Part shown: positions 53 to 18,132 of the stretch, in pieces
How positions within the stretch are numbered: the first letter of the stretch is position 1
Layout of the letters: every line of letters begins with the position of its first letter
Source of the DNA: Planobispora longispora
GTDB lineage: Bacteria > Actinomycetota > Actinomycetes > Streptosporangiales > Streptosporangiaceae
DNA length: 64,000 nt
Reading direction: 5' to 3'
NCBI RefSeq assembly: GCF_016863135.1
Contig: NZ_BOOH01000033.1
Coordinates: forward strand, 1 to 64,000
The notes under the pieces: model-generated
The model's input: only the letters and a program-made list of their open reading frames with translations
The model's database searches: none
Told to the model about the DNA's origin: nothing
Position numbers and translations under genes: made by a program

Positions 53-1216
53 TCAGGCGGCCGCGAGCCTGGCCGCCTCCTCGGCGGCGCCGTCCATGGT
101 CGTGATCTGCCGGATCGCCGGGTGACCGGCCCGCTCCAGGATCCGCCGCCCGGCGAGGGCGTTGTTGCCGTCGAGCCGCACCACGATGGGGCGGCCCAGG
201 CCGCGCTCGCCCAGCAGGCCGAGCGCGGAGACGATGCCGTCGGCGACCGCGTCGCAGGCGGTGATGCCGCCGAAGACGTTGACGAGGACGGAGCGGACGT
301 CCGGGTCGGACAGCACGATCTCCAGGCTGTCGGCCATCACCCTGGCCGAGGCGCCGCCGCCGATGTCCAGGAAGTTGGCCGGGCGGATCCCGCCGAAGCG
401 CTCCCCCGCCAGGGCGACCACGTCCAGGGTGCTCATCACCAGCCCGGCGCCGTTGCCGACGACGCCCACCTGGCCGTCGAGCTTGACGTAGTTCAGGCGC
501 CTGGCGCGCGCACGCGCCTCCAGGCTCTCCTCCCGCGACGTGCCCGCGAATGCCGAGCGGTCGTGACGGAAGGCCGCGTTGCCGTCCAGGGTGATCTTGC
601 CGTCCAGCGCGACGATGTCGCCGCCGGCGGTCCAGGCGAGCGGGTTCACCTCCACCAGGACGGCGTCCTCCGCCGCCACGACCCGCCACAGGTCCACCAG
701 CACCCCGGCGATCGCGTCCCGGACGTCGGCGGCGAACCCCGCCCGCGCCAGCAGTTCCCGCGCGGCCTCCTCGCCGACGCCCACCCGCGGATCGACCGGC
801 ATGCGGGCCAGCGCCTGCGGCCGGACGGCGGCGACCTCCTCGATGTCCATGCCGCCCTCGGTGGAGGCCATGGCGAGGAACCGGCGTTCGGCCCGGTCGA
901 CGAGATAGGCCACGTAGTACTCCTCCACGGCGACCGTGGCGGCCTCCACGAGCACGGTCTCGGCGATGTGCCCCTTGATGTCCATGCCGAGGATCCCCCT
1001 CGCCGCATCCTCGGCGGTGGCCGGACCGGGCGCGGGCCGCACTCCTCCGGCCTTGCCCCGGCCCCCGGTCTTCACCTGCGCCTTGACCACCACCGGCACG
1101 CCCAGCCCGGCCGCGATGCGGCGCGCGTCCTGCGGGGTCGCCGCCAGCCCTCCGGCGGGGACGGGAATCCCGTGCCGCGCGAAGAGCTCCTTCGCCTGGT
1201 GTTCGAACAGGTCCAC
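53..1216 (-). CDS. succinyl-CoA ligase (ADP-forming) beta-subunit-like protein
   Basis: This 387-residue protein matches the SucC/MtkA family in length and layout. An ATP-grasp region opens with DLFEHQAKELF and includes KAQVKTGGRGKAGGV. The C-terminal ligase region has GNGAGLVMSTLD, FLDIGGGA and NVFGGI. The start is a GTG preceded by GGGAGGG; the longer reading frame upstream runs through an operator and is rejected. Such enzymes couple ATP to acyl-CoA formation from a dicarboxylate. A shared operator just upstream ties it to oxalate genes, so the substrate may be oxalate, malate or succinate rather than that of the housekeeping enzyme. The alpha subunit is probably just outside the window. 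The family call is firm; the substrate is inferred. Confidence 0.88.
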   Translation of the reverse strand: MDLFEHQAKELFARHGIPVPAGGLAATPQDARRIAAGLGVPVVVKAQVKTGGRGKAGGVRPAPGPATAEDAARGILGMDIKGHIAETVLVEAATVAVEEYYVAYLVDRAERRFLAMASTEGGMDIEEVAAVRPQALARMPVDPRVGVGEEAARELLARAGFAADVRDAIAGVLVDLWRVVAAEDAVLVEVNPLAWTAGGDIVALDGKITLDGNAAFRHDRSAFAGTSREESLEARARARRLNYVKLDGQVGVVGNGAGLVMSTLDVVALAGERFGGIRPANFLDIGGGASARVMADSLEIVLSDPDVRSVLVNVFGGITACDAVADGIVSALGLLGERGLGRPIVVRLDGNNALAGRRILERAGHPAIRQITTMDGAAEEAARLAAA

Positions 1217-1239: not shown

Positions 1240-1260
1240 GTAGACGGTATACAGTATGCA
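1240..1260. promoter_or_regulatory. operator A of the oxalate regulon
   Basis: The reverse strand reads CATACTGTATACCGTCTAC, matching the motif found at five other starts in the window. It sits 24 bases upstream of the SucC-like GTG, in the divergent gap shared with the MFS gene. The central GTATAC with flanking symmetry is typical of sites bound by GntR regulators of the FCD subfamily (family knowledge). The regulator is inferred to be the product of 3381-4124. Confidence 0.75.
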
Positions 1261-1305
1261 AATGAACCCGTCCAGACCTCGACAGAAGGATGGCACGGGG
1301 ATATT

Positions 1306-1318
1306 CCATACTGTATGG
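1306..1318. promoter_or_regulatory. operator B of the oxalate regulon, overlapping a start codon
   Basis: CCATACTGTATGG is a perfect 13-base palindrome that contains the left half of the shared motif. The ATG of the MFS transporter (1315) lies inside it. A regulator bound here would block the transcription start region directly. With operator A it brackets the 98-base divergent gap. Confidence 0.65.
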
Positions 1319-2622
1319 AGAACACAGAGCTTGTCCGTGAGGAGCTCGTCCGCGACTGGCGGGGGCGCGACTATCTCGTCAGCCGGTCACCGCACGACCT
1401 GACCGGCCGATCCCGGTCCTGGATGTTCTGGCTGCCGTGGGCGGCGATGGCCGCCATCGGCCCCCTGCAGTACGGCTACGCGGCCGCCGTGCCCGCCCTG
1501 CTGGAGTCCGGCCGGTCCGTCGCCTCGGTCCTGGCGCCGCTGGCCGTCTGGATCGCCTGCCAGGCCGCCGTCGCGCTCCCCGCCGCGCTCCTGCTGCGCC
1601 GCGGCACGCTCGGGGTCCGCCTGGCGCTGGGAACCGGCGCGGCGCTCAGCGGCGCGGCGCTGCTCACCGTGGCCCTGGCCGATGACGTCGCGACGCTCGT
1701 CGTCGGCTACGCGCTGCTGGGCGGGGTGGGCGCGGGCCTGGTGTACGGCGCCTGCACCGAGGCCGTCGCCCGCTGGCATCCCGAACGCCCGGCCGCGCGC
1801 GTCGGTTTCACCACCGGCGCGTTCGCCTACGGCACGGCCCCGCTCGCGGTGGCCGTCGGGCTGGACGGAGACCTGCTCGCGCCGGCCTTCACGGTGGCGG
1901 CGCTCATCGCGTGGGCGGTCGTGGGCACGGCCGCCGCGCTCGTCAGCCTCCCGCCCAGACACTGGTGGCCCGGCCACATCGACCCCCGGGCATGGGCCCG
2001 CGACCGCCTCTCCCTCCGCAGGAACCGCCGGGCGCTACGGGAGTTCTCCGTGGGCCAGGCGCTGCGGACGGGCGCCTTCCCCGTCCTGGTGCCGATCCTG
2101 GTCTGCGCGGGGGCGGTCTCGGTCTTCGACGTGGTCGCCCTGGCGACCGCCGGCACGGCTCCGGCCTGGGCCGCCGTCGCCCTGCTCCTGGCGCTCAACG
2201 GCGCCGGGCGCGCCTGCGCGATGCTCGCCGCCGAGGCCGCGGGACGCGAGCGGGTCCTCGCCGCGCTCCTCGCGCTGCTCGCCGCCGGGCAGCTGCTGCT
2301 GGCCGCCGGGACGGCGGCGGGGTCGGCGGCCATGGTGCTGGCGGCGGCGGTCCCGGCCGGCCTGGGCGGCGGCGCGTTCTACCCGCTCGTCGCCAGCCTG
2401 GCCCGGGAGTATTTCGGCGAGGAGCAGCTCTCCTCCATCCACGGCGCCGTCTACAGCGCCAAGGCGCTGGCCGGGCTGCTCGGCGCCGGCCTCGCGGCCC
2501 TGGCCCTGACCTCGCCGGGGCACGTGACGGCTTTCCTGCTCGCCGCCGTACCGGCGGGAATCGCCGCGATCACGGCCACCGCCCTGCGCCGGCCCGGCTG
2601 GCCCGCCACGCTCCCGCGCTGA
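1315..2622 (+). CDS. MFS transporter of the oxalate:formate antiporter (OFA) family
   Basis: A 435-residue inner-membrane protein with about 12 hydrophobic segments and a cytoplasmic N-terminus of about 35 residues. The first membrane segment, with PLQYGYAAAVPAL, resembles actinobacterial OFA-family members (recognition, not a search). OxlT exchanges oxalate for formate, which fits the oxalyl-CoA and formate genes under the same operator. No Shine-Dalgarno sits at the usual distance and no other in-frame start exists nearby, so translation may be leaderless from an ATG inside the operator. The convergent hesB-like gene ends 99 bases downstream. The MFS assignment is firm; oxalate as substrate is inferred. 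Confidence 0.85.
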   Translation: MENTELVREELVRDWRGRDYLVSRSPHDLTGRSRSWMFWLPWAAMAAIGPLQYGYAAAVPALLESGRSVASVLAPLAVWIACQAAVALPAALLLRRGTLGVRLALGTGAALSGAALLTVALADDVATLVVGYALLGGVGAGLVYGACTEAVARWHPERPAARVGFTTGAFAYGTAPLAVAVGLDGDLLAPAFTVAALIAWAVVGTAAALVSLPPRHWWPGHIDPRAWARDRLSLRRNRRALREFSVGQALRTGAFPVLVPILVCAGAVSVFDVVALATAGTAPAWAAVALLLALNGAGRACAMLAAEAAGRERVLAALLALLAAGQLLLAAGTAAGSAAMVLAAAVPAGLGGGAFYPLVASLAREYFGEEQLSSIHGAVYSAKALAGLLGAGLAALALTSPGHVTAFLLAAVPAGIAAITATALRRPGWPATLPR

Positions 2623-2642
2623 ACACGCTCCGGCGCCGGCCG

Positions 2643-2662
2643 CGCCCGGGGGAAGCCGGGCG
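2643..2662. terminator. hairpin between convergent genes
   Basis: CGCCCGG and CCGGGCG form a 7-base stem around a 6-base loop, 20 bases after the MFS stop. There is no T-run, as is common in high-GC actinobacteria. It would serve the MFS gene and possibly the opposing hesB-like gene. Confidence 0.45.
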
Positions 2663-2721
2663 AGCGCCGCCTCCCGCGGCCTCCGCCCGGCCGGCACCGT
2701 GCCCGTGCGCGGCGTCGCCGC

Positions 2722-3018
2722 TCAGCCCTCGCCGTCCGTCCTGGACAGGTAGAGGGACATGCGGGTGCCGCTCGGGCTCACATCGGCGTCCAGGGTCTGG
2801 TCGTCGAGGGCGGCCGCGGCGTCGGGGTCCACGAAGACCCGGACGTCCTCCTTCTTGATCACCTGATCTCCGGCGTGCGGCACGCTCGTCAGGGACAGTT
2901 CGAGGGTGGACTCGTCGCCGGGTTTGGGCGTGATGCGAAGCCCGGCCTCCTTGGGCAGGTTCTCCCCCACCATGAGGTCGCGTATCGCCTCCACGGCTTT
3001 CTCGGTCAGCGTCAGCAC
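2722..3018 (-). CDS. HesB/IscA-like protein without cysteines
   Basis: The 98-residue protein starts at a GTG six bases after GGAG. Its sequence opens with LTLTEKAVEAIRDL and has an all-beta layout like the HesB/IscA (Fe-S biosynthesis) family. A-type Fe-S carriers use three conserved cysteines, and this protein has none, so it is unlikely to carry a cluster in the usual way. Cysteine-free members are common in actinobacteria and are usually labelled Fe-S assembly proteins without proof. It lies between oxalate-regulon genes but has no copy of their operator. The fold assignment is likely; the function is unknown. Confidence 0.75.
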   Translation of the reverse strand: MLTLTEKAVEAIRDLMVGENLPKEAGLRITPKPGDESTLELSLTSVPHAGDQVIKKEDVRVFVDPDAAAALDDQTLDADVSPSGTRMSLYLSRTDGEG

Positions 3019-3294
3019 GACATGCTCCTACGGGCGATGAGATATGGACGGGATGTGGACGTTGGCCGTCCCTGCCGACAGGGGTCGTGAGCCGTCCTGG
3101 CGGTTCCCCGTTTGATTAGCTGATCGACATATCACCTGAAATCGGCTGTCCGTATTCACCTCCCCCGGGAAAAACGGCTCAAACCCCGCAGTGATCGCGG
3201 CGGCGGGGGCCGGATCCCACGGCCCTTCACTCCCGCCCCGCCCGCCTCATGGGCGATGATGTGATCAGGCTCACCACGGTGAATGCGCTGTTCG
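3019..3294. other. non-coding region between the hesB-like gene and the regulator
   Basis: No convincing gene is seen. The stretch around 3110-3180 is clearly less GC-rich than its surroundings and probably holds the promoter of the leftward hesB-like gene. The oxalate-regulon operator begins at 3295. Confidence 0.5.
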
Positions 3295-3311
3295 CTGTAT
3301 ACTGTAGGCAG
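3295..3311. promoter_or_regulatory. operator C of the oxalate regulon, before the regulator gene
   Basis: CTGTATACTGTAGGCAG contains the core GTATAC at 3297-3302 and the repeated CTGTA element. It ends 69 bases before the regulator's ATG, which suggests autoregulation. It is the least complete of the six copies. Confidence 0.6.
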
Positions 3312-3380
3312 TCGACGACAAACAACAGTGGAACCGTCCGCAGGCGGCGGTCGTGTCGTCCCGTCCGGGAGCAGAACACC

Positions 3381-4124
3381 ATGGTGCGGTCGGAACTAGC
3401 GAACTCGGGGGCGGCACCCAAGATCCCGCGCCCGGCCACCCTCCGCGAGAGCGTCTTCGAGGCGATCCTCGAGCTCATCATCCGCGGGAGCCTCAGCCCC
3501 GGTCAGCACCTGGCCGAGAGCGAGCTCGCCGAGATGCTGGGGGTGTCCCGCCAGCCCGTCCGCGAGGCCCTGCAGATGCTCAGCGGCGAGGGCTGGGTGG
3601 ATCTGCGTCCCGGGCACGGCGCGTTCGTCCACGCCCCCACCGTCGAGGAGGCGGACCAGCTGCTCGCCGTCCGCACGCTGCTGGAGACCGAGTCCGCCCG
3701 GCTGGCGGCGGCGAACGCGACGCCGGACGGCGTGGCGCGGCTGCGCGAGGTCTGCGCCCGGGGCCTGGCCGCCGTCCAGGCCGACGACGTCGAGAGCGCG
3801 GTGGCGGCCAACTCGGAGCTCCACGCGCTGGTCACCGAGCTGTCGGGCAACCGGGTCCTGTCCGAGCTGGCCTCCCAGGTCTCCCGCCGGGTGCGGTGGT
3901 ACCACACGCCCGTGGCGCGCCAGCGCGGTCACGCCTCCTGGGAGGAGCACACCCGGCTCATCGACGCCATCGAGGCGGGCGACCAGGGCCGCGCCGAGCA
4001 GATCATGCGCGAGCACACCGAGCACACCCGCCGGTCCTACCTGGAGCAGCGGGCCGAGGCCCCGGCCGAGCCCGCCCCCATGCCCCAGCGCCGCAGGCGG
4101 CCGCGCTCGCTCAGCGCCAGTTGA
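3381..4124 (+). CDS. GntR family transcriptional regulator, FadR/FCD subfamily
   Basis: A 247-residue protein. Residues about 15-80 are a GntR winged helix with LAESELAEMLGVSRQPVREA as its recognition region, ending in GHGAFV. The rest is an FCD ligand-binding domain, helical with conserved Asp and His positions such as NSELHALV and WEEHTRLIDAI. The ATG follows GGGAGCAGAACACC; a longer frame upstream covers the operator and is rejected. Its own promoter carries the same motif as five neighbouring promoters, so it is the best candidate regulator of the oxalate and formate genes. The inducer is unknown; oxalate, glyoxylate or an acyl-CoA are plausible. The Arg/Pro-rich C-terminal tail is probably disordered. 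Confidence 0.9.
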   Translation: MVRSELANSGAAPKIPRPATLRESVFEAILELIIRGSLSPGQHLAESELAEMLGVSRQPVREALQMLSGEGWVDLRPGHGAFVHAPTVEEADQLLAVRTLLETESARLAAANATPDGVARLREVCARGLAAVQADDVESAVAANSELHALVTELSGNRVLSELASQVSRRVRWYHTPVARQRGHASWEEHTRLIDAIEAGDQGRAEQIMREHTEHTRRSYLEQRAEAPAEPAPMPQRRRRPRSLSAS

Positions 4125-4200
4125 CGGGCGGTTCACCGGCGGAAGGTTTCCCCGTGACACCTCGGGCAGAGACCCGGCAGCAGATGGGATGGTGATGACG

Positions 4201-4392
4201 ATGAAGGCGCTCCTGGACCGGCTCCGCTTTCTCACCAGTAGACCCGCGGGCGCCCCCGCGGACGGCCGGATGATCGGCATCGGCCTCGCCACGGCCCTGC
4301 GCCGGTACGGCTCGGCCGACGATGCCGAACGCCACCTGCGCCGCTGGGCCGCCGAGCCGCGGACCGACGCCCCACGCCACCGTTCCCTCTGA
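4201..4392 (+). CDS. small hypothetical protein
   Basis: A 63-residue frame from ATG 4201 (or ATG 4189) has third-position GC bias like its neighbours and an amphipathic, Arg-rich C-terminal half. I recognise no family. Tandem repeats begin exactly around its stop codon, as they do at four clear genes in this window, which mildly supports it as a real gene. The ribosome-binding site is weak. Confidence 0.4.
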   Translation: MKALLDRLRFLTSRPAGAPADGRMIGIGLATALRRYGSADDAERHLRRWAAEPRTDAPRHRSL

Positions 4393-4480
4393 CGGAACCG
4401 TTCGCCACGGACTCCACCGCCGTTCCCGGTGACGGAACCGTTCCCGCCGCGGAATCCGCCGCCGTTCCCGGTGACGGAAC
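4380..4480. repeat. tandem repeat spanning a stop codon
   Basis: Three units start at 4380, 4420 and 4462, with periods of 40 and 42 bases. Each contains CCGTTCCC followed by TGACGGAAC. The first copy of TGA is the stop of the small frame ending at 4392. Inside the unit GGAACCGTTCC is nearly self-complementary. Confidence 0.75.
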
Positions 4481-4543
4481 GCCAGGCGGACGGGCCCGCC
4501 CCGGTGGAGCGGCGACCCGCCCGCGCGGCGTGATCCGTGCCCG

Positions 4544-5602
4544 TCAGCCGTCCGCGTGCGTCCCGGCCCGATCCCCCGCCGGACCGGCCACGCCCCCGTC
4601 CTCCGGGCCGGCCCCGTTCCGGCCGTCCGGATCCTCGCCCGCCCCGGCCCGGGCCTCGCGCCCGCGGTCGCCGCGCGACTTCAGCAGGCTGAGCACGGTG
4701 GTGACCGCCAGGGTGCCGACGATGACCCCGAGGGAGACCGTGATGGGGATCTCCGGGGCCCAGGCGACGCCGTCGTGGTGCAGGGCCTCCAGGACGAGCT
4801 TCACGCCGATGAAGGCGAGGACCACCGCCAGGCCCTTGCTCAGATAGACCAGCCGGTCCAGCAGCCCTCCGATGAGGAAGAACAGCTGCCGCAGCCCCAT
4901 CAGCGCGAAGGCGTTGGCGGTGAACACCAGGTAGGGCTCCTTGGTCAGCCCGAAGATGGCCGGGATCGAGTCCAGGGCGAACAGCAGGTCGGTGGTCCCG
5001 ATCGCCACCATCACGATCAGCATCGGGGTGACGACCATGCGGCCGCCGATCCGTGTGACGAGCGACGCCCCCCGGTAGGTCCCGGTCGTGGGCAGGACCC
5101 GCCTGACCGTGCGCAGCGCCAGGTTCTCGGAGAACTCCGCCTCTTCCTCCTCGTGGCCGATCAGCTTCCACGCCGTGTAGACGAGGAAGGCCCCGAAGAC
5201 GTAGAAGAGCCAGTCGAAGCGGGTCACCGCCTCGGCGCCCGCGGCGATGAAGATCCCGCGCATGCCGAGCGCCATGACGATCCCGACCAGCAGCACCTTC
5301 TGCCGGTACTGCCGGGGCACCGCGAAGCGGCTCATGATCAGCAGGAACACGAAGAGGTTGTCGACGCTGAGGGAGTACTCGGTGATCCAGCCCGCGAAGA
5401 ACTCGCCGCCGCGGGCCGGCCCGGCGGCCAGCAGCAGTCCCGCGCCGAACGCCCCGGCCAGCAGCACGTAGAAGCTCACCCATCCCACGCACTCGCGGAA
5501 GGACGGCTCGCGGGGGTTGCGCGCGACGAGATAGAAGTCGACGGCGAGCACGAGCGCGAAGCCGGCGATCGTGGCCAGCCAGACCCAGCCGGGGACGTTC
5601 AT
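4544..5602 (-). CDS. TerC/Alx family integral membrane protein
   Basis: A 352-residue protein with about nine membrane segments. It has the TerC hallmarks: an intramembrane acidic motif in WITEYSLSVDNLFVFLL (about residues 72-88) and a second in GTTDLLFALDSIPAI (about 203-217). Family members such as Alx and TerC take part in Mn2+ export and metal homeostasis. The C-terminal 50 residues are hydrophilic and rich in Gly, Ala and Asp. Its ATG overlaps the TGA of the upstream membrane gene (ATGA), so it is the last gene of the oxc operon. A metal-efflux role next to oxalate breakdown is unusual. No yybP-ykoY-like leader is possible at this overlap. Confidence 0.88.
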   Translation of the reverse strand: MNVPGWVWLATIAGFALVLAVDFYLVARNPREPSFRECVGWVSFYVLLAGAFGAGLLLAAGPARGGEFFAGWITEYSLSVDNLFVFLLIMSRFAVPRQYRQKVLLVGIVMALGMRGIFIAAGAEAVTRFDWLFYVFGAFLVYTAWKLIGHEEEEAEFSENLALRTVRRVLPTTGTYRGASLVTRIGGRMVVTPMLIVMVAIGTTDLLFALDSIPAIFGLTKEPYLVFTANAFALMGLRQLFFLIGGLLDRLVYLSKGLAVVLAFIGVKLVLEALHHDGVAWAPEIPITVSLGVIVGTLAVTTVLSLLKSRGDRGREARAGAGEDPDGRNGAGPEDGGVAGPAGDRAGTHADG

Positions 5603-6120
5603 CGCCGCGCCCCCTTCCGTGTCCTGCGGCGCCCGGCGGCCGAGCGCAGCACCTCCGCGTGCGCGACGTAGCGGTCGAGCAGTTCGCGCGCGTACGGGTT
5701 GTGCCCGCGCAGGCGCAGCAGCCAGTACGGCATCAGCCGCTCGTGCAGCCAGACGAAGCCGATCGCGAAGCCGAGGCTCACCATGGCCTGGTAGCCCAGG
5801 AACCCCGCCACCCCGCCGGCCAGGACGACCTCCCCGGTCAGGGTCAGGCCCGCCGCGGTCTCCTGGGCCAGACGGGCCAGGGGGAAGCCCGCCAGCCAGT
5901 AGAGACCGGCCGGGGCGAACACGCCCAGCCTGATCACGCCCTGGCCGGTCAGCAGGCCGTACCCCGCCCCGAGGATCCCCAGGGGAAGGGCCAGCGCCAG
6001 GGCGGAGACCGCGGCCCAGCCGACGGGCCGACCCGCGAGGAGGGTCAGCCCGCCGGCCATGAGGCCCGCGACAGCTCCGATCACCGCTCCGGGAAGAGCG
6101 AGTTCAGCGTGGTGTCGCAT
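5599..6120 (-). CDS. hypothetical multi-pass membrane protein
   Basis: A 173-residue protein with about four hydrophobic segments: two Gly/Ala-rich ones in the first 60 residues, then two between about 70 and 125. A basic cytoplasmic tail ends in RRRTRKGARR. I do not recognise the family. The start ATG follows GAGGACGGGCCG, ten bases after the Nramp-like stop, and its TGA overlaps the terC ATG. It is therefore translated between two transporters and may be an accessory subunit of one of them; that is only context. Confidence 0.75.
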   Translation of the reverse strand: MRHHAELALPGAVIGAVAGLMAGGLTLLAGRPVGWAAVSALALALPLGILGAGYGLLTGQGVIRLGVFAPAGLYWLAGFPLARLAQETAAGLTLTGEVVLAGGVAGFLGYQAMVSLGFAIGFVWLHERLMPYWLLRLRGHNPYARELLDRYVAHAEVLRSAAGRRRTRKGARR

Positions 6121-6130
6121 CGGCCCGTCC

Positions 6131-7636
6131 TCAGCCCACGACCACGCCGAAGGCGAACAGGCTGTAGAAGAGCATGCCGAGGTAGAAGAAGGCGCCGAAC
6201 CCGATGATCAGGTTGGTCCACCACCTGGGCCTGATGGGCTTGGGCAACATCCGGTTGTTCACCAGCAGCAGCGTCACGCAGTAGGCGCCCATCGCGAAGG
6301 TCGACAGGAAGGCCAGCGTGTCCAGGATGCCGCTGGGGCCGTCGGCGGGGCCGAACAGCAGGATGAGGATGCCGAATATGATCACGCCCCAGAGGAAGCC
6401 CGCGTACAGGTGCGAGAGCTTGACCTTCTTGGCCCCCGGGACGAAGTTGTGGGTCATGTCGGCCTGGCCCCGGGAGAAGGAGTCGAACAGGCCGAGCGTG
6501 GCGTTGAGGCCGATGAGCGCGATGAACCCGAGGAAGATCGTGCCGAGCACCGAGCTGCCCGCCGAGGAGACGGAGTCGGCCATGGCGCTGAGCGCGACCT
6601 CGCGGTCGTCTCCCTGGACGGCGGTGCGGACGGCGGGGTCCTGCCGGACCGCGGCCTGTGCGATCACCGTGAAGGAGATCGTCACCAGCATGGTGATGCC
6701 CCAGAACAGCAGCAGCGCGTCGAAGGTGACCCACCGCCGCCACCCCCGCCACTTGGCCATCTCCCGGGGGTCGTCGGTGTCGAACATGAAGCCCCGCGAG
6801 GGCATGGCCTCTTCCTCGCCGGCGTGCCGCAGCCCGCGGATGGTCGGGATGTGGGCGCCCATGCCGGCCCCCGAGTCGCGCAGGTGCAGGGTGTACCACA
6901 TCTGCTGCATGCCCGAGGGGCCGGCGAAGGCGCACGCTCCGACGATGACCGGGAACCAGGCCGCCGTCATGGCCTCCTGCGGGAAGTACCCGAAGTGGAA
7001 CATGCCGGTGATCGTGCTGACCACGTCGTCCCAGGTGCCGACCATGGCCGCGACGACGGCCGTGCCCAGCACGAGCGTGCCGATCAGGATCGACAGCACG
7101 TTCTCCAGCAGGTTGTAGATCACCTTCGCCAGGCTGAAGACGACGCCCACGAGGATCAGGCCGATGACGGCCGTCACCATCCACGGGATGCCGGTGATCT
7201 GCTCGAAGGCCGCGGCTCCCGCCGACAGGTGCCCCGGCCAGATGTAGACCAGGATCGCCACGACGAAGAAGAACCACATGAGCGGCTTGAAGACCCGCGC
7301 CGCGCCGGAGAAGATGCTCTCTCCCGTCGCCATCGCGTAGCGCGCCATCTCCAGCATCACCACCGCCTGCAGGGTGACGCCGATGAGGAAGAGCCACCGG
7401 ATCTCCGGCCCGAACAGCAGGACCAGCCGGGGCCACATGTAGGACTCGCCCATGCCCACGCCGAGCGCGACGAGGAACACGGTGGGGCCGAGGATGTGCA
7501 CCGACGGGGGCGCGTCGGGCAGCGTGCGGACGGGCATCGGCTCCAGCCCGCCCGCGCGCCATACTCGTTCTTCCTGGCCCGGCGCGGCGGAGACATGACC
7601 GGTCTCCGTTGTCGCCGGTGTTTTCGATGTGTCCAC
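6131..7636 (-). CDS. Nramp-like (APC superfamily) transporter lacking the metal-binding motifs
   Basis: A 501-residue protein with about 11-12 membrane segments. Nramp transporters bind Mn2+/Fe2+ through a DPGN motif in the first helix and a Met motif in the sixth. Here the first-helix position reads GVGMGESYMWP and the sixth-helix region reads FAGPSGMQQMW, so neither motif is kept. The start is a GTG seven bases after AGGAGG; a frame 21 codons longer lacks a ribosome-binding site. It lies 73 bases after the acyl-CoA ligase in the oxc operon. It probably carries something other than free divalent metal, or a metal complex. The superfamily call is likely; the substrate is unknown. Confidence 0.78.
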   Translation of the reverse strand: MDTSKTPATTETGHVSAAPGQEERVWRAGGLEPMPVRTLPDAPPSVHILGPTVFLVALGVGMGESYMWPRLVLLFGPEIRWLFLIGVTLQAVVMLEMARYAMATGESIFSGAARVFKPLMWFFFVVAILVYIWPGHLSAGAAAFEQITGIPWMVTAVIGLILVGVVFSLAKVIYNLLENVLSILIGTLVLGTAVVAAMVGTWDDVVSTITGMFHFGYFPQEAMTAAWFPVIVGACAFAGPSGMQQMWYTLHLRDSGAGMGAHIPTIRGLRHAGEEEAMPSRGFMFDTDDPREMAKWRGWRRWVTFDALLLFWGITMLVTISFTVIAQAAVRQDPAVRTAVQGDDREVALSAMADSVSSAGSSVLGTIFLGFIALIGLNATLGLFDSFSRGQADMTHNFVPGAKKVKLSHLYAGFLWGVIIFGILILLFGPADGPSGILDTLAFLSTFAMGAYCVTLLLVNNRMLPKPIRPRWWTNLIIGFGAFFYLGMLFYSLFAFGVVVG

Positions 7637-7709
7637 CTGCGGACCTCCTGGGGGGTTGGTTGATCCTGCCGGAGTGCCTGGGTTCGCCCCCTCGCTCACG
7701 GTGCGCGGG

Positions 7710-9866
7710 TCAGCCGCGCAGCAGTCCGGCCGCTCTGGCCCAGCGGTACTTCGCGCCGAGCACGGCCACCGGCTTCTCGGTCGTGTAGGGATAGGCGATC
7801 ACGCCGTGGTCGAACAGGTGGTCGCAGGCGTCCTCGACCTCGGTGTCACCGGCCAGCGAGGCGACGACCGGCTTGTCGTTGCCCTTGGCCCGTTCCTCGG
7901 CGACCACCCGCGCGACCAGCTCGGCGAAGACCATCGGCGGCGTCACGATGGTGTGCCAGTAGCCCAGCACCAGCGCGTGGACCCGCGGGTCGGTCAGGCC
8001 GAGCCTGATGGTGTTCTCGTAGGTGCTCGGCGGCTCGCCGCCGGTGATGTCGACGGGGTTGCCGGCCGCGCCGAACGGCGGGATGTAGGCGCGGAAGGCC
8101 GCGTCGAGATCCGGCGGGATCTCCATGAGCGACAGCCCGTTGTCGACGCAGGCGTCGGAGAGCAGGACGCCCGAGCCGCCCGCGCCGGTGATGATGACGA
8201 CGTTCTCCCCCTTGGGGGCGGGCATGAGCGGCAGGGAGCGGGCGTACTCCAGCATGTCGTTCAGGCCCGGCGCGCGGACCACCCCGGCCTGGCGCAGGAT
8301 GTCGTCGTAGACCTTGTCGTCGCCGGCCAGCGCCCCGGTGTGCGAGCCGGCAGCCCGCGCGCCCATCGCGGTGCGCCCGGCCTTGAGCACGATCACCGGC
8401 TTGGCGCGGACCATCCGCCGGGCCGCCTCCACGAAGCCGCGCCCGTCCTTGAGGTCCTCCAGGTGCATGGCGACGCAGCGGGTGTTGTCGTCCTGCTCGA
8501 AGAAGGTGAGCAGGTCGTCCTCGTCGATGTCGGCCTTGTTGCCGACGCCCACGATCGCCGACACGCCCGTCCCGGTCGTCCTGCTGAACCCCAGGATGGC
8601 CATGCCGATGCCCCCGCTCTGCGAGGTCAGCGCCACTCCGCCCTTGACGTCGTACGGCGTGCAGAACGTCGCGCAGAGGTTCTCCGGCGTGTAGTAGTAG
8701 CCGTAGATGTTGGGCCCGAGAATCCGCACGCCGTGCCTGCGCGCGATCTCCACGATCTCCCGCTGGCCCTCGGCGTTGCCCGTCTCGGCGAACCCGGACG
8801 GGATCATGATGGCGCCCGCCACGCCCTTGAGGCCCGCCTGCTCCAGGGCCGCGGGCACGAGCTTGGCCGGGATCGCGAAGACCGCCACGTCCACCTCGCC
8901 CGGCGCCTCGGCGATGCTCGGGTAGGCGGGCAGGCCCAGGATCTCCGGGGCCTTGGGGTTGATCGGGTAGATGTGGCCGCGGTAGCCGCCCTCGATCAGG
9001 TTGCGCATGACCGAATTGCCGATCTTCCCCGTCTCCCCCGAGGCGCCGATCACCGCGACGGACCTCGGCCGGAAGATCCGGCTCATGGATGCGAGGATCT
9101 CCTCGCGCGGCGGCCGTACCGGCTCGGGCTCGGGCCGCTCGGCGAGCAGCACGCGGACGTCGGCCGCCGTGGCCCCCGCGGCGGTGGCGAAGACGGGGTT
9201 GAGGTCCACCTCGGCGATCTCGGGGAAGTCGCCGACCAGCGCGCCGACCCGTTCGATCATGTCCGCGAGCGCCCTCCTGTCCGCCGGTTCGGCACCCCGG
9301 GCACCACGCAGCACTTCGGCCGCCCTGATGTCGTCCAGCATCCCCATGGCATCTTCACCCGGGAGCGGGGCGAGCCGGAAGGTCACATCCTTGATCACCT
9401 CGACCAGGACGCCGCCGAGCCCGAAGGCGACGACCTTGCCGAAGGTCGGGTCGGTGACCGCACCGATGATCACCTCGTGGCCGCCGCCCACCATGGCCTG
9501 GACCTGGACGCCGTCGATCACCGCGTCGGGGTTGTAGGCGCGCGCCGACGCCGTGATCTGCTCGTGACCCGCCCGCACCGCGTCCGCGTCGCCGAGCCCG
9601 ACGAGCACGCCGCCCGCCTCCGTCTTGTGCAGGATGTCCGGGGAGACGATCTTCAGCACCACGGGGAAGCCGAGCTCCGCCGCGATGGAGACGGCCTCGT
9701 CCGCGGAGGCCGCCAGCCCCTCCCCGGGGGTCGTGATGCCGTACGCCTCGCAGACGCGGCGGCCTTCCGGCGCGGTCAGGGCGGTGCGGTTCTCCGCGCG
9801 CGCCTTGTCCAGCACCTCCCGCACGGCGGCCCGGTCGTACTGTACGGTGGCGCGGTCGTACGCCAT
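7710..9866 (-). CDS. NDP-forming acyl-CoA synthetase (fused ATP-grasp and CoA-binding subunits)
   Basis: A 718-residue protein. About residues 15-235 form an ATP-grasp (beta) domain with GFPVVLKIVSPDILHKTEAG. A CoA-binding Rossmann domain begins near residue 255 with RSVAVIGASGETGKIG, followed by ligase domains containing LTSQSGGIG and GSHTGALAGDD; that His is the expected phosphohistidine. The beta-alpha order is one of the known arrangements of ADP-forming acetyl-CoA synthetases. Its ATG overlaps the frc stop (TGATG), so the two are coupled. It could make oxalyl-CoA or formyl-CoA with ATP to prime the CoA-transferase cycle, or run backwards and gain ATP from a CoA thioester. Substrate not shown. 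Confidence 0.88.
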   Translation of the reverse strand: MAYDRATVQYDRAAVREVLDKARAENRTALTAPEGRRVCEAYGITTPGEGLAASADEAVSIAAELGFPVVLKIVSPDILHKTEAGGVLVGLGDADAVRAGHEQITASARAYNPDAVIDGVQVQAMVGGGHEVIIGAVTDPTFGKVVAFGLGGVLVEVIKDVTFRLAPLPGEDAMGMLDDIRAAEVLRGARGAEPADRRALADMIERVGALVGDFPEIAEVDLNPVFATAAGATAADVRVLLAERPEPEPVRPPREEILASMSRIFRPRSVAVIGASGETGKIGNSVMRNLIEGGYRGHIYPINPKAPEILGLPAYPSIAEAPGEVDVAVFAIPAKLVPAALEQAGLKGVAGAIMIPSGFAETGNAEGQREIVEIARRHGVRILGPNIYGYYYTPENLCATFCTPYDVKGGVALTSQSGGIGMAILGFSRTTGTGVSAIVGVGNKADIDEDDLLTFFEQDDNTRCVAMHLEDLKDGRGFVEAARRMVRAKPVIVLKAGRTAMGARAAGSHTGALAGDDKVYDDILRQAGVVRAPGLNDMLEYARSLPLMPAPKGENVVIITGAGGSGVLLSDACVDNGLSLMEIPPDLDAAFRAYIPPFGAAGNPVDITGGEPPSTYENTIRLGLTDPRVHALVLGYWHTIVTPPMVFAELVARVVAEERAKGNDKPVVASLAGDTEVEDACDHLFDHGVIAYPYTTEKPVAVLGAKYRWARAAGLLRG

Positions 9867-11134
9867 CAGATCACTCCGTCCGTCTTCAGCTCGGCGAGCT
9901 CCCGGGGGGACAGGCCCAGACCGGTGTAGATCTCGGTGTTGTGCTCGCCCAGCAGGGGCGGGGTGGTGATCTCGACCGGGGAGTCCGACAGCTGCAGCGG
10001 GCTGCCGACCGTCACGAACGAGCCGCGCTCGGGGTGCCCGACCTCGACCACCATGCCCTCCTGCCGGAGGGTCTCGTCCCGGATCAGCTCCTCGGTCGAC
10101 AGGATCGGGCCGCACGGGACGCCGGCGGCGTTGAGCCGGTCGAGGACCTCCCACTTGCCGTGGCGGCTGCTCCACTCCTCGATGAGCTGGAACATCTTGT
10201 CCAGCTTCGACAGCCGGGCCTGGGGGGTGGCCCACTCGGGGTCGTCGGCCAGCTCGGGGCGGCCGATGATCGCGGAGAGGGGCGCCCAGCCGACCGGCTG
10301 GACGATGACGTAGATGTAGTCGTTGGGACCGCCGGGGGCGCAGCGCACGGCCCAGCCGGGCTGCCCGCCGCCGGAGGCGTTCCCCGAGCGCGGGACCTCC
10401 GTGCCGAAAGTCTTGTTGGGGTACTCCGTCAGCGGGCCGTGCGCGAGCCGCTGCTGGTCGCGGAGCTTGACCCGGCACAGGTTGAGCACGGCGTGCTGCA
10501 TGGCCACCTGCACCCGCTGCCCGCGGCCGGTCCGCTCCCGCTGGTAGAGCGCCGCGAGGATGGCGGCCACGGCGTGCACCCCGGTGCCCGAGTCGCCGAT
10601 CTGCGCGCCGGTGGCCAGCGGCGGGCCGTCCTCGAAACCGGTGGTGCTCATCGACCCGCCCATCGCCTGGGCGATCACCTCGTAGGCCTTGAACTTGGCG
10701 TAGCGGCCCGGGCCGAAGCCCTTGATCGAGGCGTAGACCAGCCGGGGGTTGAGCTCCTGGAGCCGCTCCCAGGTGAAGCCCATCCGGTCGACGGCGCCGG
10801 GCCCGAAGTTCTCCACCATGACGTCGGACCCGCGCACCAGGTCGGCGAAGATCTCCTTGCCGCGCTCGCTCTTCATGTTGAGCGTGATGCTGCGCTTGTT
10901 GCAGTTCAGCATCGTGAAGTAGAGGCTGTCGACGCCGGGGACGTCGCGCAGCTGCCCGCGCGTGACGTCGCCCGAGGGCGCCTCCAGCTTGACCACGTCC
11001 GCGCCCAGCCAGGCCAGCAGCTGGGTGCAGGACGGCCCGGACTGCACATGGGTCATGTCGAGGACGCGGATGCCGTCCAGAGCCTTGCCACCGGATCCGC
11101 CCGTGTCCACGGGCCGTTCAGCGCTCCTGCTCAT
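9866..11134 (-). CDS. frc: formyl-CoA:oxalate CoA-transferase
   Basis: A 422-residue class III CoA-transferase that moves CoA from formyl-CoA to oxalate, giving oxalyl-CoA and formate. It closely follows the remembered sequence of E. coli Frc: GIRVLDMTHVQSGPSCTQLL, LYFTMLNCNKRSITLN, GFTWERLQELNPRL, LNLCRVKLRDQQRL and GGGGQPGW-type glycine runs. The catalytic aspartate is the D of AQIGDSGTG. The ATG follows GAGGGGCGACCG, which overlaps the oxc stop ten bases upstream. The glycine loop and the DQQRL region fit formyl-CoA transferase better than the wider CaiB/BaiF family. Its oxc neighbour supports the assignment. Confidence 0.95.
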   Translation of the reverse strand: MSRSAERPVDTGGSGGKALDGIRVLDMTHVQSGPSCTQLLAWLGADVVKLEAPSGDVTRGQLRDVPGVDSLYFTMLNCNKRSITLNMKSERGKEIFADLVRGSDVMVENFGPGAVDRMGFTWERLQELNPRLVYASIKGFGPGRYAKFKAYEVIAQAMGGSMSTTGFEDGPPLATGAQIGDSGTGVHAVAAILAALYQRERTGRGQRVQVAMQHAVLNLCRVKLRDQQRLAHGPLTEYPNKTFGTEVPRSGNASGGGQPGWAVRCAPGGPNDYIYVIVQPVGWAPLSAIIGRPELADDPEWATPQARLSKLDKMFQLIEEWSSRHGKWEVLDRLNAAGVPCGPILSTEELIRDETLRQEGMVVEVGHPERGSFVTVGSPLQLSDSPVEITTPPLLGEHNTEIYTGLGLSPRELAELKTDGVI

Positions 11135-11144
11135 CGGTCGCCCC

Positions 11145-12836
11145 TCACTTGTACATGGTCTGGTTCATGGTTCCGGGGGCGTATACCTCCGGATCGACCC
11201 ATACGTTGATCAGCGCGGGCTTGCCCGACTCGCGGGCCCGCTCCAGGGCGGGACGGATGTCGGCGGGGTCCCTGACCTCCTCGCCGTGGCCGCCCAGCAT
11301 CCGGGCGAACTCGTCGTATCTGACGTCGCCGAGGGTGTTGCCGATCCGGGCGCGCTCCTGGCCGTACTTGGCGGCCTGGCCGTAGCGGATCTGGTTCATC
11401 GAGGAGTTGTTGCCGATGACCCCGATGAACGGCAGGCCGAAGCGGACCATGGTCTCGAAGTCCCAGCCGGTGAGGCTGAAGGCGCCGTCGCCGAAGAGGC
11501 AGAGCACCTCCTTGTCCGGCCGGGCGTGCTTGGCCGCCATCGCGAAGGCGACGCCGACGCCGAGGGTGCCCAGCGGGCCGGGGTCCATCCAGTGGCCGGG
11601 CGACTTGGGCTGCACGACCTGGCCGGAGAAGGTGACGATGTCGCCGCCGTCGCCGATGTAGACGGAGTCCTCGGTGAGGAACTCGTTGATCTCGTGGACC
11701 AGCCGGTAGGGGTCGATCGGCCGGGCGCCGGACAGCTGCCGGGGCAGCCGCTTGTCGTAGGCCTGTCTCTCGACCGCGCGCAACTCCTCCAGCCACTCCT
11801 TGCGGCGGGCCGCCCCGTTGTCGGCGCGCCCGGAGGCGGCCTGCGCGGCGGCGGAGAGCACGAGCCCGGCGTCGCCGACGATGCCGAGGTCGATGTCGCG
11901 GTTCTTGCCGACGGTCCGGTAGTCGAGGTCGATCTGGACCACGGTCGCCGTGGGCGACAGCCGCCTGCCGTACCCCATGCGGAAGTCGAACGGGGTGCCG
12001 ACGATGATGATCAGGTCGGCGTTGGTGAACGCGTAGCGCCGGGACAGCTGGAAGTGGTGGGGGTCGCCGGGCGGGAGCGTGCCGCGTCCGGAGCCGTTCA
12101 TGTAGGCGGGGACGTTCAGCGCGCGGACGAAGTCGATCGCGTCGTCGGTGGCGCGGCAGGTCCACACCTGACTGCCCAGCAGGACGCACGGCTTCTCCGC
12201 GTGGACCAGCAGGTCGGCCAGGCGCTCGACCGCCTCCGGGTCGCCCGCCTGGCGGGTGGAGGCCCGGTAGCGGCCGGTCCGGGGGATGCGGGCCGAGGCC
12301 AGCGGGACCCTGGCGTCGAGCACGTCGCGCGGGATCTCCAGGAACGACGGGCCGGGCGCGCCGTGGTAGCACTCGCGGAAGGCCATCGACACGATGTCGG
12401 CCACCCGCTCGGTCGAGGGCACCGTCGCGGCGAACTTGGTGATCGGGGTCATCATGTCGACGTGCGGCAGGTCCTGCAGCGAGCCCATCTTGTGCTGGCT
12501 GAGGGCCCCTTGGCCGCCGATGAGCAGCATGGGGCTCTCCGCCCGGAAGGCGTTGGCCACGCCGGTGACCGCGTCGGTGGTCCCCGGCCCGGCCGTCACC
12601 ACCGCGCAGCCCGGCTTTCCGGTGATCCGCGCGTAGCCGTCGGCGGCGTGCGCGGCGACCTGCTCGTGGCGGACGTCGACGACGTCGATGCCCTCGTCGA
12701 CGCAGCCGTCGTAGATGTCGATGATGTGGCCGCCGCAGAGCGTGAAGATCACATCGATCCCCTCCGCTTTGAGCGCCTTGGCGACCAGGTGTCCACCGGA
12801 GATCGTTTCCGTCGCCGTGTCCGTCGGCTGGGTCAT
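11145..12836 (-). CDS. oxc: oxalyl-CoA decarboxylase (thiamine diphosphate enzyme)
   Basis: A 563-residue ThDP enzyme with the usual three domains. The pyrimidine-binding domain has the activating Glu in DVRHEQVAAHAADGYAR (about residue 50). The diphosphate-binding motif is GDGAFSLTGWDFETMVRFGLP...NN near residues 440-475. The ATG follows AGAGGA eight bases upstream; an upstream frame extends into the operator and is rejected. It is first in a six-gene operon and is followed by frc, the standard oxalate pair. Related families are acetolactate synthase-like IlvG and 2-hydroxyacyl-CoA lyase, with which sequence alone can be confused. Oxalyl-CoA decarboxylase is assigned mainly from frc and formate dehydrogenase context. 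Confidence 0.85.
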   Translation of the reverse strand: MTQPTDTATETISGGHLVAKALKAEGIDVIFTLCGGHIIDIYDGCVDEGIDVVDVRHEQVAAHAADGYARITGKPGCAVVTAGPGTTDAVTGVANAFRAESPMLLIGGQGALSQHKMGSLQDLPHVDMMTPITKFAATVPSTERVADIVSMAFRECYHGAPGPSFLEIPRDVLDARVPLASARIPRTGRYRASTRQAGDPEAVERLADLLVHAEKPCVLLGSQVWTCRATDDAIDFVRALNVPAYMNGSGRGTLPPGDPHHFQLSRRYAFTNADLIIIVGTPFDFRMGYGRRLSPTATVVQIDLDYRTVGKNRDIDLGIVGDAGLVLSAAAQAASGRADNGAARRKEWLEELRAVERQAYDKRLPRQLSGARPIDPYRLVHEINEFLTEDSVYIGDGGDIVTFSGQVVQPKSPGHWMDPGPLGTLGVGVAFAMAAKHARPDKEVLCLFGDGAFSLTGWDFETMVRFGLPFIGVIGNNSSMNQIRYGQAAKYGQERARIGNTLGDVRYDEFARMLGGHGEEVRDPADIRPALERARESGKPALINVWVDPEVYAPGTMNQTMYK

Positions 12837-12862
12837 CCGTGCGATCCTCTCAGCGTGTTCTG

Positions 12863-12880
12863 CATACTGCATACCGTATG
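12863..12880. promoter_or_regulatory. operator D of the oxalate regulon, before oxc
   Basis: CATACTGCATACCGTATG is an 18-base, nearly palindromic site 27 bases upstream of the oxc ATG. It is the most symmetric full-length copy and a good reference for the motif. It would control the whole oxc-to-terC operon. Confidence 0.78.
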
Positions 12881-13174
12881 AGGGCAATGGTTACTCTGGA
12901 GATCGGGTGATGTCTAGACCCTTTGCCCGGCCGTCAGGACGGTCCAGCCGCCCGGGTCATCCGGATTGTCGGCACCCATCCCGGCCATGCGAGCCGCCCT
13001 CCCAGGAGAGGCCCCTCGGGGCGGCCGGCTCCGTGAGAGCGGACGGGGGATCACCGATGGCCCACCCGCCGCGAGCAGCCGGTTCACCGGCCGCGGCCAG
13101 GGCTTCAGCGGCGGCGATCTTCCGGTTGGCAGGGCTCGGCGGGACCATCGGCGGCTCCTTGACCGGCTTTTTTC
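12881..13174. other. divergent spacer between oxc and the PanE-like gene
   Basis: About 290 bases without a convincing gene; the frames across it are poor in start signals. Operators D and E lie at its two ends, so each divergent gene has its own site rather than sharing one. Confidence 0.55.
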
Positions 13175-13192
13175 CATACTGTATACCGAATG
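13175..13192. promoter_or_regulatory. operator E of the oxalate regulon, before the PanE-like gene
   Basis: CATACTGTATACCGAATG matches the shared motif at 17 of 18 positions of the consensus. It ends 28 bases before the GTG start of the reductase gene and follows a T-rich run. Confidence 0.78.
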
Positions 13193-13220
13193 CATTGTCG
13201 ACGCGAGAACGGAGCCCCCA

Positions 13221-14210
13221 GTGAAAGTCGCTGTTCTTGGCGCCGGCGCCATCGGCGCCTACGTCGGCGCGGCCCTCTGCCGGGCCGGGGTCGACGTGCA
13301 TCTCATCGCCCGAGGCGAGCACCTCGCGGCGATGCGCGAGTCCGGCGTGCGCGTCCTGAGCCCCCGGGGCGACTTCACCGCCCATCCCCACGCCACCGGC
13401 GACCCGCGCGAGGTCGGCCCGGTGGACTACGTCTTCCTCGGCCTGAAGGCCACCTCCTACGCCGGCGCGGGTCCCATGATCGAGCCGCTGCTCCACGAGG
13501 CCACCGGCATCGTCGCCGCACAGAACGGCATCCCGTGGTGGTACTTCCACCGGCTCCCCGGCCCCTACCAGGGCTACTCCATCCAGAGCGTCGACCCCGA
13601 AGGGGCGGTCACCGCGGCCCTCCCGTTGGAGCGCGCGATCGGCTGCGTCGTCTACGCCGCCACCGAGATCGAGTCCCCCGGCGTCATCCGCCACCTGGAG
13701 GGCACCCGCTTCTCCGTCGGCGAGCCGGACGGCTCCCTGTCGCCCCGCTGCGCCGCCTTCAGCCGGGCCATGGTCTCCGGCGGCCTGAAGTGCCCGGTGG
13801 AGGCCGACCTGCGGCGCGACATCTGGATCAAGCTCATGGGCAACATCGCGTTCAACCCGATCAGCGCCCTGACCCGGGCCACGATGGCGGGGATCTGCCG
13901 CCACGGCGGGACGCGCGAGCTGGTCGTCACGATGATGCGCGAGACCGTCGAGGTGGCCCGCCGCGTCGGCTGCGACCCCGGAGTCTCCATCGAGCGACGG
14001 CTCTCGGGCGCCGAGCGTGCCGGGGAGCACAAGACCTCGACGCTCCAGGACCTGGAGCGGGGCAGGCCCATGGAGCTCGACGTGATCCTCGCGGCCGTCG
14101 TGGAGCTGGCCGACCTCACCGGCGCCGAGGTGCCGACCCTGCGGGCCATCCACGCGGTCGCCGACCTCCTGGCCGAGCAGGCCCGCCGGGACCTTGTCCC
14201 CGTGCGCTAG
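13221..14210 (+). CDS. PanE/ApbA-family reductase, candidate oxalyl-CoA reductase
   Basis: A 329-residue NADP-dependent reductase of the 2-dehydropantoate 2-reductase family. The N-terminal Rossmann motif is VAVLGAGAIGAYVGAALCRAG. The C-terminal helical domain has DIWIKLMGNIAFNPISALT, with the expected Lys and Asn, and KTSTLQDLERGRPMELD. The GTG start follows GGAG by six bases. Operator E ties it to oxalate genes. In Methylobacterium extorquens a PanE paralogue (PanE2) was reported as an oxalyl-CoA reductase giving glyoxylate, so the same role here would open an assimilatory branch. A true pantothenate enzyme supplying CoA is the alternative. Family firm, substrate inferred. Confidence 0.88.
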   Translation: MKVAVLGAGAIGAYVGAALCRAGVDVHLIARGEHLAAMRESGVRVLSPRGDFTAHPHATGDPREVGPVDYVFLGLKATSYAGAGPMIEPLLHEATGIVAAQNGIPWWYFHRLPGPYQGYSIQSVDPEGAVTAALPLERAIGCVVYAATEIESPGVIRHLEGTRFSVGEPDGSLSPRCAAFSRAMVSGGLKCPVEADLRRDIWIKLMGNIAFNPISALTRATMAGICRHGGTRELVVTMMRETVEVARRVGCDPGVSIERRLSGAERAGEHKTSTLQDLERGRPMELDVILAAVVELADLTGAEVPTLRAIHAVADLLAEQARRDLVPVR

Positions 14211-14215
14211 CGCGA

Positions 14216-14236
14216 CATACTGTAGACGGTATACAG
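14216..14236. promoter_or_regulatory. operator F of the oxalate regulon, before formate dehydrogenase
   Basis: CATACTGTAGACGGTATACAG contains two overlapping copies of the core in opposite orientation. It lies 42 bases upstream of the formate dehydrogenase TTG start and just after the reductase stop, so the dehydrogenase operon can be induced separately. Confidence 0.75.
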
Positions 14237-14278
14237 CATTCTCTGAAAGTTCCAGGAGATCCCTGAAAGGGGCGGGCA

Positions 14279-16204: not shown

Positions 16205-16211
16205 GGAGGGC

Positions 16212-18050: not shown

Positions 18051-18132
18051 CGGTTCCGGGAGAAGTCACCGCAGCGAGCCGTTCCGTGTCCCCCCGGCGC
18101 GGAGGCCGGGAACCCCACGCCGGAGGCAGCCG

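Follow-up and report, generated by a model that had tools for sequence, protein, structure and literature searches.

A conserved tandem operator and its likely GntR/FCD repressor in an oxalate regulon of Planobispora longispora

Which regulator governs the genes for oxalate use that lie together in Planobispora longispora, and how far does its control reach? The question is raised by a stretch of 64,000 nucleotides (contig NZ_BOOH01000033.1; hereafter the window, which is contig C33 from base 1 of an 8.84-Mb genome in 120 contigs). There an earlier note, made from the letters of the sequence, had placed one operator motif before a SucC-like ligase gene (sucC), an OFA-like transporter gene (OFA, for oxalate/formate antiporter), a GntR-type regulator gene (gntR), an oxc-frc operon, a PanE-like reductase gene (panE) and a formate dehydrogenase operon (fdh, starting with fdhA), and had named the GntR/FCD gene as the likely regulator. 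The analysis reported here reveals a real and conserved regulon with a likely GntR/FCD repressor, of a familiar kind with several unusual details. Judged by sequence comparison, the six sites are very probably operators through which a single local repressor, the GntR/FCD protein, would control the oxalate regulon.

The sites were counted against two controls: the reversed motif pattern in site scans and shuffled sequences in window scans. In the window, the motif as an 18-mer with up to three mismatches gave six strand matches at four places (1241, 12863, 13175 and 14216) and none in 100 shuffles, while ATACnGTAT with up to one mismatch gave 11 matches, none of them outside the six named sites (1.37 on average and at most 6 in shuffles). 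Thus all six proposed sites are present well above chance and, as the earlier note had it, the window holds no further copies. Over the whole own genome, the 16-mer ATACnGTATACnGTAT with up to one mismatch occurred at four places (1242, 12864, 13176 and 14217), all inside the window and upstream of sucC, the oxc-like gene, panE and fdhA respectively, and the reversed pattern occurred at none; random occurrence across the genome, fixed beforehand as the outcome that would count against a regulon, was therefore not what the scan returned. At two mismatches two further places appeared: 14224, which lengthens the array of fdhA, and C3:53079, which falls where an FMN_bind_2 gene begins and was set aside as probably a chance match. 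At up to three mismatches there was no excess over control (22 places vs 32 for the reversed pattern), so that weaker matches carry no meaning alone, and the sites of OFA and gntR rest on conservation instead of on the own-genome scan.

How are the operators built, and where do they stand in their promoters? Each is a tandem array of ACnGT cores at a 7-bp period with AT-like linkers, mostly of two to three units. The earlier description of two overlapping ATACnGTAT units is accurate for sucC, oxc and panE; the number varies elsewhere along the same 7-bp array, with three units at fdhA and one good unit at OFA, and the gntR operator is a variant array, GTATACT-GTAGGCA-GTCGAC. Putative promoter elements were chosen by eye at 17-18 bp spacing, the -35 of gntR being left unassigned. 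Four operators lie over a putative -10: those of i) sucC (1242..1257, two units, AGACGGTATACAGTAT; minus-strand promoter with -10 TATACC at 1246-1251 and -35 TGGACG at 1269-1274, spacer 17); ii) panE (13176..13191, ATACTGTATACCGAAT; -35 TTGACC at 13159-13164, and -10 TATACC at 13182-13187 within the operator); iii) the fdh operon (14217..14239, three units, ATACTGTAGACGGTATACAGCAT; -35 TTGTCC at 14194-14199, -10 TACTGT at 14218-14223); and iv) gntR (3297..3316, plus strand, a three-unit variant array, with GTATACTGTAGGCAGTCGAC read at the site at 3295; -10 TATACT at 3298-3303). The other two lie near the putative +1. That of the oxc-frc operon (12864..12879, ATACTGCATACCGTAT) falls just downstream of the putative start point of a minus-strand promoter (-35 TAGACA at 12911-12916, -10 TAACCA at 12888-12893), and is displaced by a further 6-7 bp in L050 and L053. 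That of OFA (1301..1319, ATATTCCATACTGTATGGA; -35 TCGACA at 1279-1284, -10 TATTCC at 1302-1307) has its one good unit at 1308-1316, the site at 1306 being the single unit ATACTGTAT on the start codon; the OFA transcript probably lacks a leader, and the operator sits on its ATG. The gap from the 16-mer to the start codon is 25 bases for sucC, 27 for oxc, 29 for panE, 46 for fdhA and ~73 for gntR, while the OFA site overlaps the ATG. Such overlap with a putative -10 or +1 fits a repressor that excludes RNA polymerase. The idea that every promoter avoids a perfect operator, suggested by the lack of any perfect 16-mer in 60 genomes, was dropped, as perfect sites occur in other genera, e.g., g57.

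Are the sites kept in relatives? Two sets were used: the own genome plus 59 relatives (60 genomes of 55 genera, in which 20 and then 14 regions were mapped for genes and sites), and a named set of 52 loci, of which 50 were mapped (0.91 Mb), 39 from Streptosporangiaceae and 11 from Pseudonocardia/Saccharopolyspora. The former comprise Planobispora, Planomonospora, Streptosporangium, Nonomuraea, Acrocarpospora, Planotetraspora, Herbidospora, Microtetraspora, Thermocatellispora and Sphaerisporangium; the family was looked up for two of the named genera and taken as generally known for the rest. The two sets are not independent since they share genomes (L098, L118, L122, L123, L127 and L129 gave repeated upstream sequences). 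A site was counted within 200 bases upstream of a gene, after exclusion of duplicate upstream sequences, of tblastn hits below 40% identity or starting after residue 60 (one oxc, L146), of genes with too short an upstream region (two oxc in Streptosporangiaceae, one panE in the other set and one gntR, L106), and of L148 and L149 (27-31% identity).

The 50 named loci held 88 sites, vs 0 for the reversed control. In the Streptosporangiaceae among them, a site with up to one mismatch preceded sucC in 37 of 37 cases, and a site preceded oxc in all 34 with readable upstream DNA (37 in total, two too short and one cut at the locus end) and panE in 10 of 10 at up to two mismatches (9 of 10 at up to one), while the five inner operon genes had none (0/186). 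In the Pseudonocardia/Saccharopolyspora loci the site was found at oxc in 3/3 and at panE in 3/3. For OFA, the count of 35/35 was not used because the site of the divergent sucC falls within the same 200 bases; conservation there rests on the single-unit pattern, found within two mismatches in 31 distinct promoters. Altogether, most of the clusters seen have sites upstream of sucC, OFA, oxc, panE and fdhA, and the sites stay with their operons where these are on separate contigs or far apart. In a sample of the order, scanned for sites alone and not for the regulator, 103 of 249 genomes had a site with up to one mismatch vs 10 of 249 for the reversed control. Thus the comparison with related genomes that the earlier note had called for finds the sites conserved before the target genes and absent before the inner ones.

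Which protein would read these sites? The GntR/FCD gene (3381..4124, plus strand), the likely repressor predicted here, encodes an N-terminal GntR winged helix (PF00392, 75.3 bits, over 27) and a C-terminal FCD domain (PF07729, 98 bits, over 24.3), with ~20 residues ahead of the GntR domain. The residues N144, H148, H190 and H212, which we take to form a metal site (one Asp/Asn and three His), are invariant in 33 of 33 aligned regulator sequences. GntR/FCD proteins use palindromic operators with GT and AC half-sites. Among the 60 genomes, sites with up to one mismatch occur in 15, exactly those with both the regulator (at least 50% identity; 27 genomes) and frc (16 genomes); the Fisher p for this co-occurrence is 1.9e-14, uncorrected for kinship, and the reversed control matches in 3/60. 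Moreover, in L057, L082, L085 and L091, where gntR is distant from oxc or flanks it on a different side, gntR adjoins panE with a site or a single unit between them. Conservation and this co-occurrence support the GntR/FCD gene as the likely regulator.

The operator also extends beyond oxalate genes. In genus g98, of another family, a ATACTGTATGCAGTAT site (L162:9607 and L163:9540) has an FCD regulator of 48-50% identity 3.8 kb away; in the genome G397 (L162) the site lies between a gene for enzyme I of the phosphotransferase system (PTS) and mannose-type PTS genes, and the FCD regulator is 48% identical. The g98 site near both an FCD regulator and PTS genes suggests that the operator goes with the regulator subfamily and not with the oxalate genes; g98 has perhaps a PTS regulon under the same regulator subfamily. 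A sample of the class showed sites in 17 genomes: eight have a close regulator, and eight of the other nine are from g98.

Several observations weigh against assigning the sites to this regulator. Among the 60 genomes, 12 of the 27 with the regulator have no site with up to one mismatch, and all twelve lack frc; conversely, G004 has frc but no close regulator, and by eye only a diverged element could be made out. In the class sample the 17 site-bearing genomes out of 246 compare with 10 of 246 for the reversed control, so that chance may account for an isolated site there. Of the 17, nine have no regulator at E<=1e-60, and each of the three inspected (G379 and G397 from g98, and G430) has an FCD homologue of 48-57% identity within 4 kb, one match being partial. 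Likewise, of the 19 class genomes that have the regulator, 11 show no site with up to one mismatch. The 20-kb surroundings were examined in five of these 11, and G308, G378 and G460 have a two-mismatch site before panE, in a panE-fdh operon; around the regulators of G024 and G057 no site was found at up to three mismatches in 20 kb. In Pseudonocardia/Saccharopolyspora sucC has the site in 2/8 and OFA in 2/9 at up to two mismatches, and in most loci the gntR site is three to six mismatches from the 16-mer. Apart from these points, the regulator tree (32 rows; the partial sequence L042 excluded) does not join the oxalate-linked regulators in one clade (four label changes), so the FCD group includes copies with and without oxalate targets. 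The tree counts L046 of G001, a contig of Planobispora siamensis, as oxalate-linked by kinship, no cluster having been found there; this regulator is 89% identical and has kept its own operator, and the genome has neither frc nor a site with up to one mismatch. It is a natural orphan.

Could the sites then belong to another regulator, with the GntR/FCD gene a passenger or merely co-regulated? The site before gntR is the most divergent, and the element of G004 stands without a close regulator, as such a protein would allow. We consider it improbable, because the sites and the FCD subfamily occur together in the 60 genomes and again near the PTS targets of g98, because gntR adjoins the panE site in several genomes, and because family searches of the window genes given to them returned no second regulator. 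It is very improbable that the motif is a promoter element, i.e., the -10 region of a sigma factor. TATACC or TATACT within several sites could act as a -10, but the position relative to the putative -35 varies (at the -10 in sucC, panE and fdhA, near +1 in oxc and OFA, and shifted at oxc in L050 and L053), and the motif is long, palindromic, tandem and found only four times in the genome at up to one mismatch. An activating or dual role of the GntR protein is compatible with the sequence, and some GntR proteins do activate; that all operators overlap a putative -10 or +1, where most regulators repress, makes this unlikely too.

What sets the level of the repressor itself? That gntR has a copy of the motif, as the earlier note had seen, proved correct, the copy being a conserved variant array; the note had left unreported a CRP-like box beside it (3261..3274, GTGATCAGGCTCAC), whose centre precedes the -10 of gntR by 30.5 bp (about -42.5). 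With GTGA-N6-TCAC as the CRP-type consensus, 49 of the 70 distinct gntR promoters carry the box, where shuffled sequences gave 0.12 on average and 2 at most; none of the 187 other regulon promoters has it. The box is centred 30.5-32.5 bp before the -10, except in five promoters, where the distance is 41.5-42.5 bp, about one helical turn more. The 21 promoters without a perfect box belong mostly to more distant copies and also to L140, L144 and L147; in the gntR promoter of L046 the box has one mismatch. Of the wider form TGTGA-N6-TCACA the own genome has 13 copies, against one for the reversed control, and the gntR box is not among these 13 because it ends in TCACC. The spacing to the -10 suggests activation of the repressor gene, i.e., that a CRP-type input acts on the regulator gene as activator.

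Is the gene in the oxc position an oxalyl-CoA decarboxylase? It encodes an enzyme dependent on thiamine pyrophosphate (TPP; 11145..12836, minus strand) that resembles 2-hydroxyacyl-CoA lyase (HACL) and acetolactate synthase. The label oxc given to it earlier does not hold in the strict sense: it scores 237.5 bits against the oxalyl-CoA decarboxylase family TIGR03254, whose cut-off is 739.4, and the key residues differ. Those of Oxc are E56, Y120, E121, Y483 and S553 (PMC10192776, available in part); in an alignment with the canonical Oxc of the genome G029, on which these positions were mapped by reading, E56 alone is kept, and the positions of Y120-E121, Y483 and the C-terminal Ser differ. 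The nearest solved structure is that of an actinobacterial 2-hydroxyacyl-CoA lyase (PDB 7pt1-7pt4, 274 bits). On the other hand, each of the 37 named Streptosporangiaceae loci with this enzyme has it together with frc, and the cluster of G029 has in its stead a canonical Oxc (946.9 bits) behind the same operator; the closest copy of the window type in that genome is 40% identical. A canonical Oxc above the cut-off is found in 1 of the 60 genomes and frc in 16. Since both the partnership with frc and the swap in G029 point to oxalyl-CoA decarboxylation, I read the TPP enzyme as a replacement with predicted oxalyl-CoA decarboxylase function. An actinobacterial Oxc group I is described in PMC10192776, which may or may not correspond to the window type.

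The sites do link the six kinds of genes first proposed, with two amendments: the oxc gene is non-canonical, as above, and the sucC operon is longer than had been supposed. The sucC-like gene (53..1216, minus strand; beta subunit of an ADP-forming succinate-CoA ligase) is in relatives the first of an operon sucC-sucD-hyi-glxR-gcl, in which SucD and Gcl score above a family cut-off and Hyi and GlxR below theirs. In the own genome contig C70 breaks off at gcl, glxR and hyi; sucD was not seen, presumably because it falls in the assembly gap. The regulon thereby reaches glyoxylate assimilation, and probably spans the way from oxalate to glycerate, beyond that from oxalate to formate. The role of sucCD may be to restore the CoA donor: what PanE takes of the oxalyl-CoA would drop out of the frc cycle, and succinyl-CoA may make up for that donor. 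PanE itself (13221..14210, plus strand) is a PanE/ApbA-like reductase of the ApbA family. As PanE2 of Methylorubrum extorquens was characterized as a putative oxalyl-CoA reductase (PMC8411744, available in part), the same role is likely for the window protein, which is possibly an oxalyl-CoA reductase of the PanE2 kind.

The OFA-like transporter of the major facilitator superfamily (MFS; 1315..2622, plus strand) has weak family matches (oxalate/formate antiporter family, 85.9 of 374.85 bits; L-lactate transporter, 110 of 320), below all cut-offs, so its substrate is a guess. At L087:8719 (G006) the operator stands before another MFS transporter, of the NCBIfam L-lactate type (320.6 bits, cut-off 320) and below the cut-off of the OFA subfamily. 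The oxc-frc operon (4544..12836, minus strand), defined by gene order and short gaps, comprises six genes: the TPP enzyme, frc (formyl-CoA transferase, 9866..11134, minus strand; TIGR03253, 662.9 bits, above the cut-off of 504.2), an NDP-forming CoA ligase, an Nramp-family transporter, a small protein without any family match and a TerC-like protein. The Nramp-family, TerC-like and small proteins (4544-7699) are conserved neighbours within it, which hints that the Nramp and TerC-like proteins handle metal ions entering with oxalate.

The formate dehydrogenase operon (14279..19954, plus strand) encodes the catalytic part of FdhA (14279-16204), a fused NuoE/NuoF-like protein (16212-18050), a NuoG-like part with the FdhA Fe4S4 domain (18133-19101) and fdhD (19094-19954). 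Its alpha subunit is split and permuted, the Fe4S4 N-terminal domain being near the C-terminal end of the NuoG-like gene: TIGR01591 positions 49-672 fall in the first gene and positions 1-54 in the NuoG-like gene, two genes downstream. In relatives fdhA and fdhG are separate genes. At L083:8966 (G010) the operator heads a group that starts with a mobA-like gene and continues with an aldehyde ferredoxin oxidoreductase-like gene and a second formate dehydrogenase, whose parts are in natural order.

The circuit that we propose would run as follows. The GntR/FCD protein (3381-4124) would bind the tandem ATACnGTAT units at five target promoters and at its own; once bound it would cover the -10 or the start point and so block RNA polymerase. 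A metabolite derived from oxalate (oxalate, oxalyl-CoA, glyoxylate or formate) would release it and so turn on the OFA-like gene for transport, frc and the genes of the TPP enzyme and the NDP-forming CoA ligase for CoA activation and decarboxylation, panE for oxalyl-CoA reduction, sucCD-hyi-glxR-gcl for the glycerate pathway and fdh for the oxidation of formate. The level of the repressor would probably be set by an activator of the CRP family.

How does this compare with known systems? NanR of E. coli is a GntR/FCD repressor of sialic acid genes that acts on three operons through one operator type, in which (GGTATA)3 repeats are bound cooperatively by three dimers with a 32-residue N-terminal extension (PMC8012715, available in part). 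The window system shares with it an FCD-family GntR protein with a metal site, repeated operator units, several operons and, as predicted here, an operator that blocks transcription. It differs in its unit (GTATACn at a 7-bp period, with inner dyads) and its metabolism, and the regulator reaches 97.3 bits against the NanR equivalog NF003011, whose cut-off is 260. Ahead of its GntR domain are ~20 residues, next to the 32 of the NanR extension. As in M. extorquens, with Oxc and PanE2, the oxalate route is CoA-dependent and combines decarboxylation with reduction to glyoxylate (PMC8411744, available in part); unlike there, glyoxylate would probably enter a Gcl/GlxR glycerate pathway and the decarboxylase is a different one. 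Among the literature consulted, no report of GntR-type control of oxalate assimilation in M. extorquens came up. The actinobacterial 2-hydroxyacyl-CoA lyase, the best solved relative of the TPP enzyme, likewise has a GntR-family regulator gene in its cluster (PMC7176365, available in part), but the TPP enzyme differs in having frc as operon partner and in being replaced by a canonical Oxc in G029. Among the matches listed in the open PMC literature, with subscription papers mostly outside it, none concerned a GntR regulator or operator for oxalate genes. We advance tentatively, as a possibility with less than even chances, that the system is a complete oxalate regulon whose layout is new: CRP input on the repressor gene only and at no catabolic promoter, stacked dimers on a 7-bp array, and a non-orthologous oxalyl-CoA decarboxylase derived from HACL/acetolactate synthase.

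Two questions follow for this family: does an HACL-like enzyme decarboxylate oxalyl-CoA, and does a CRP-family protein tune oxalate use via the repressor alone? Soil bacteria that feed on oxalate convert what plants supply of it to carbonate and biomass; for this process the finding offers an exact operator, a likely repressor and a list of targets that reaches glyoxylate assimilation.

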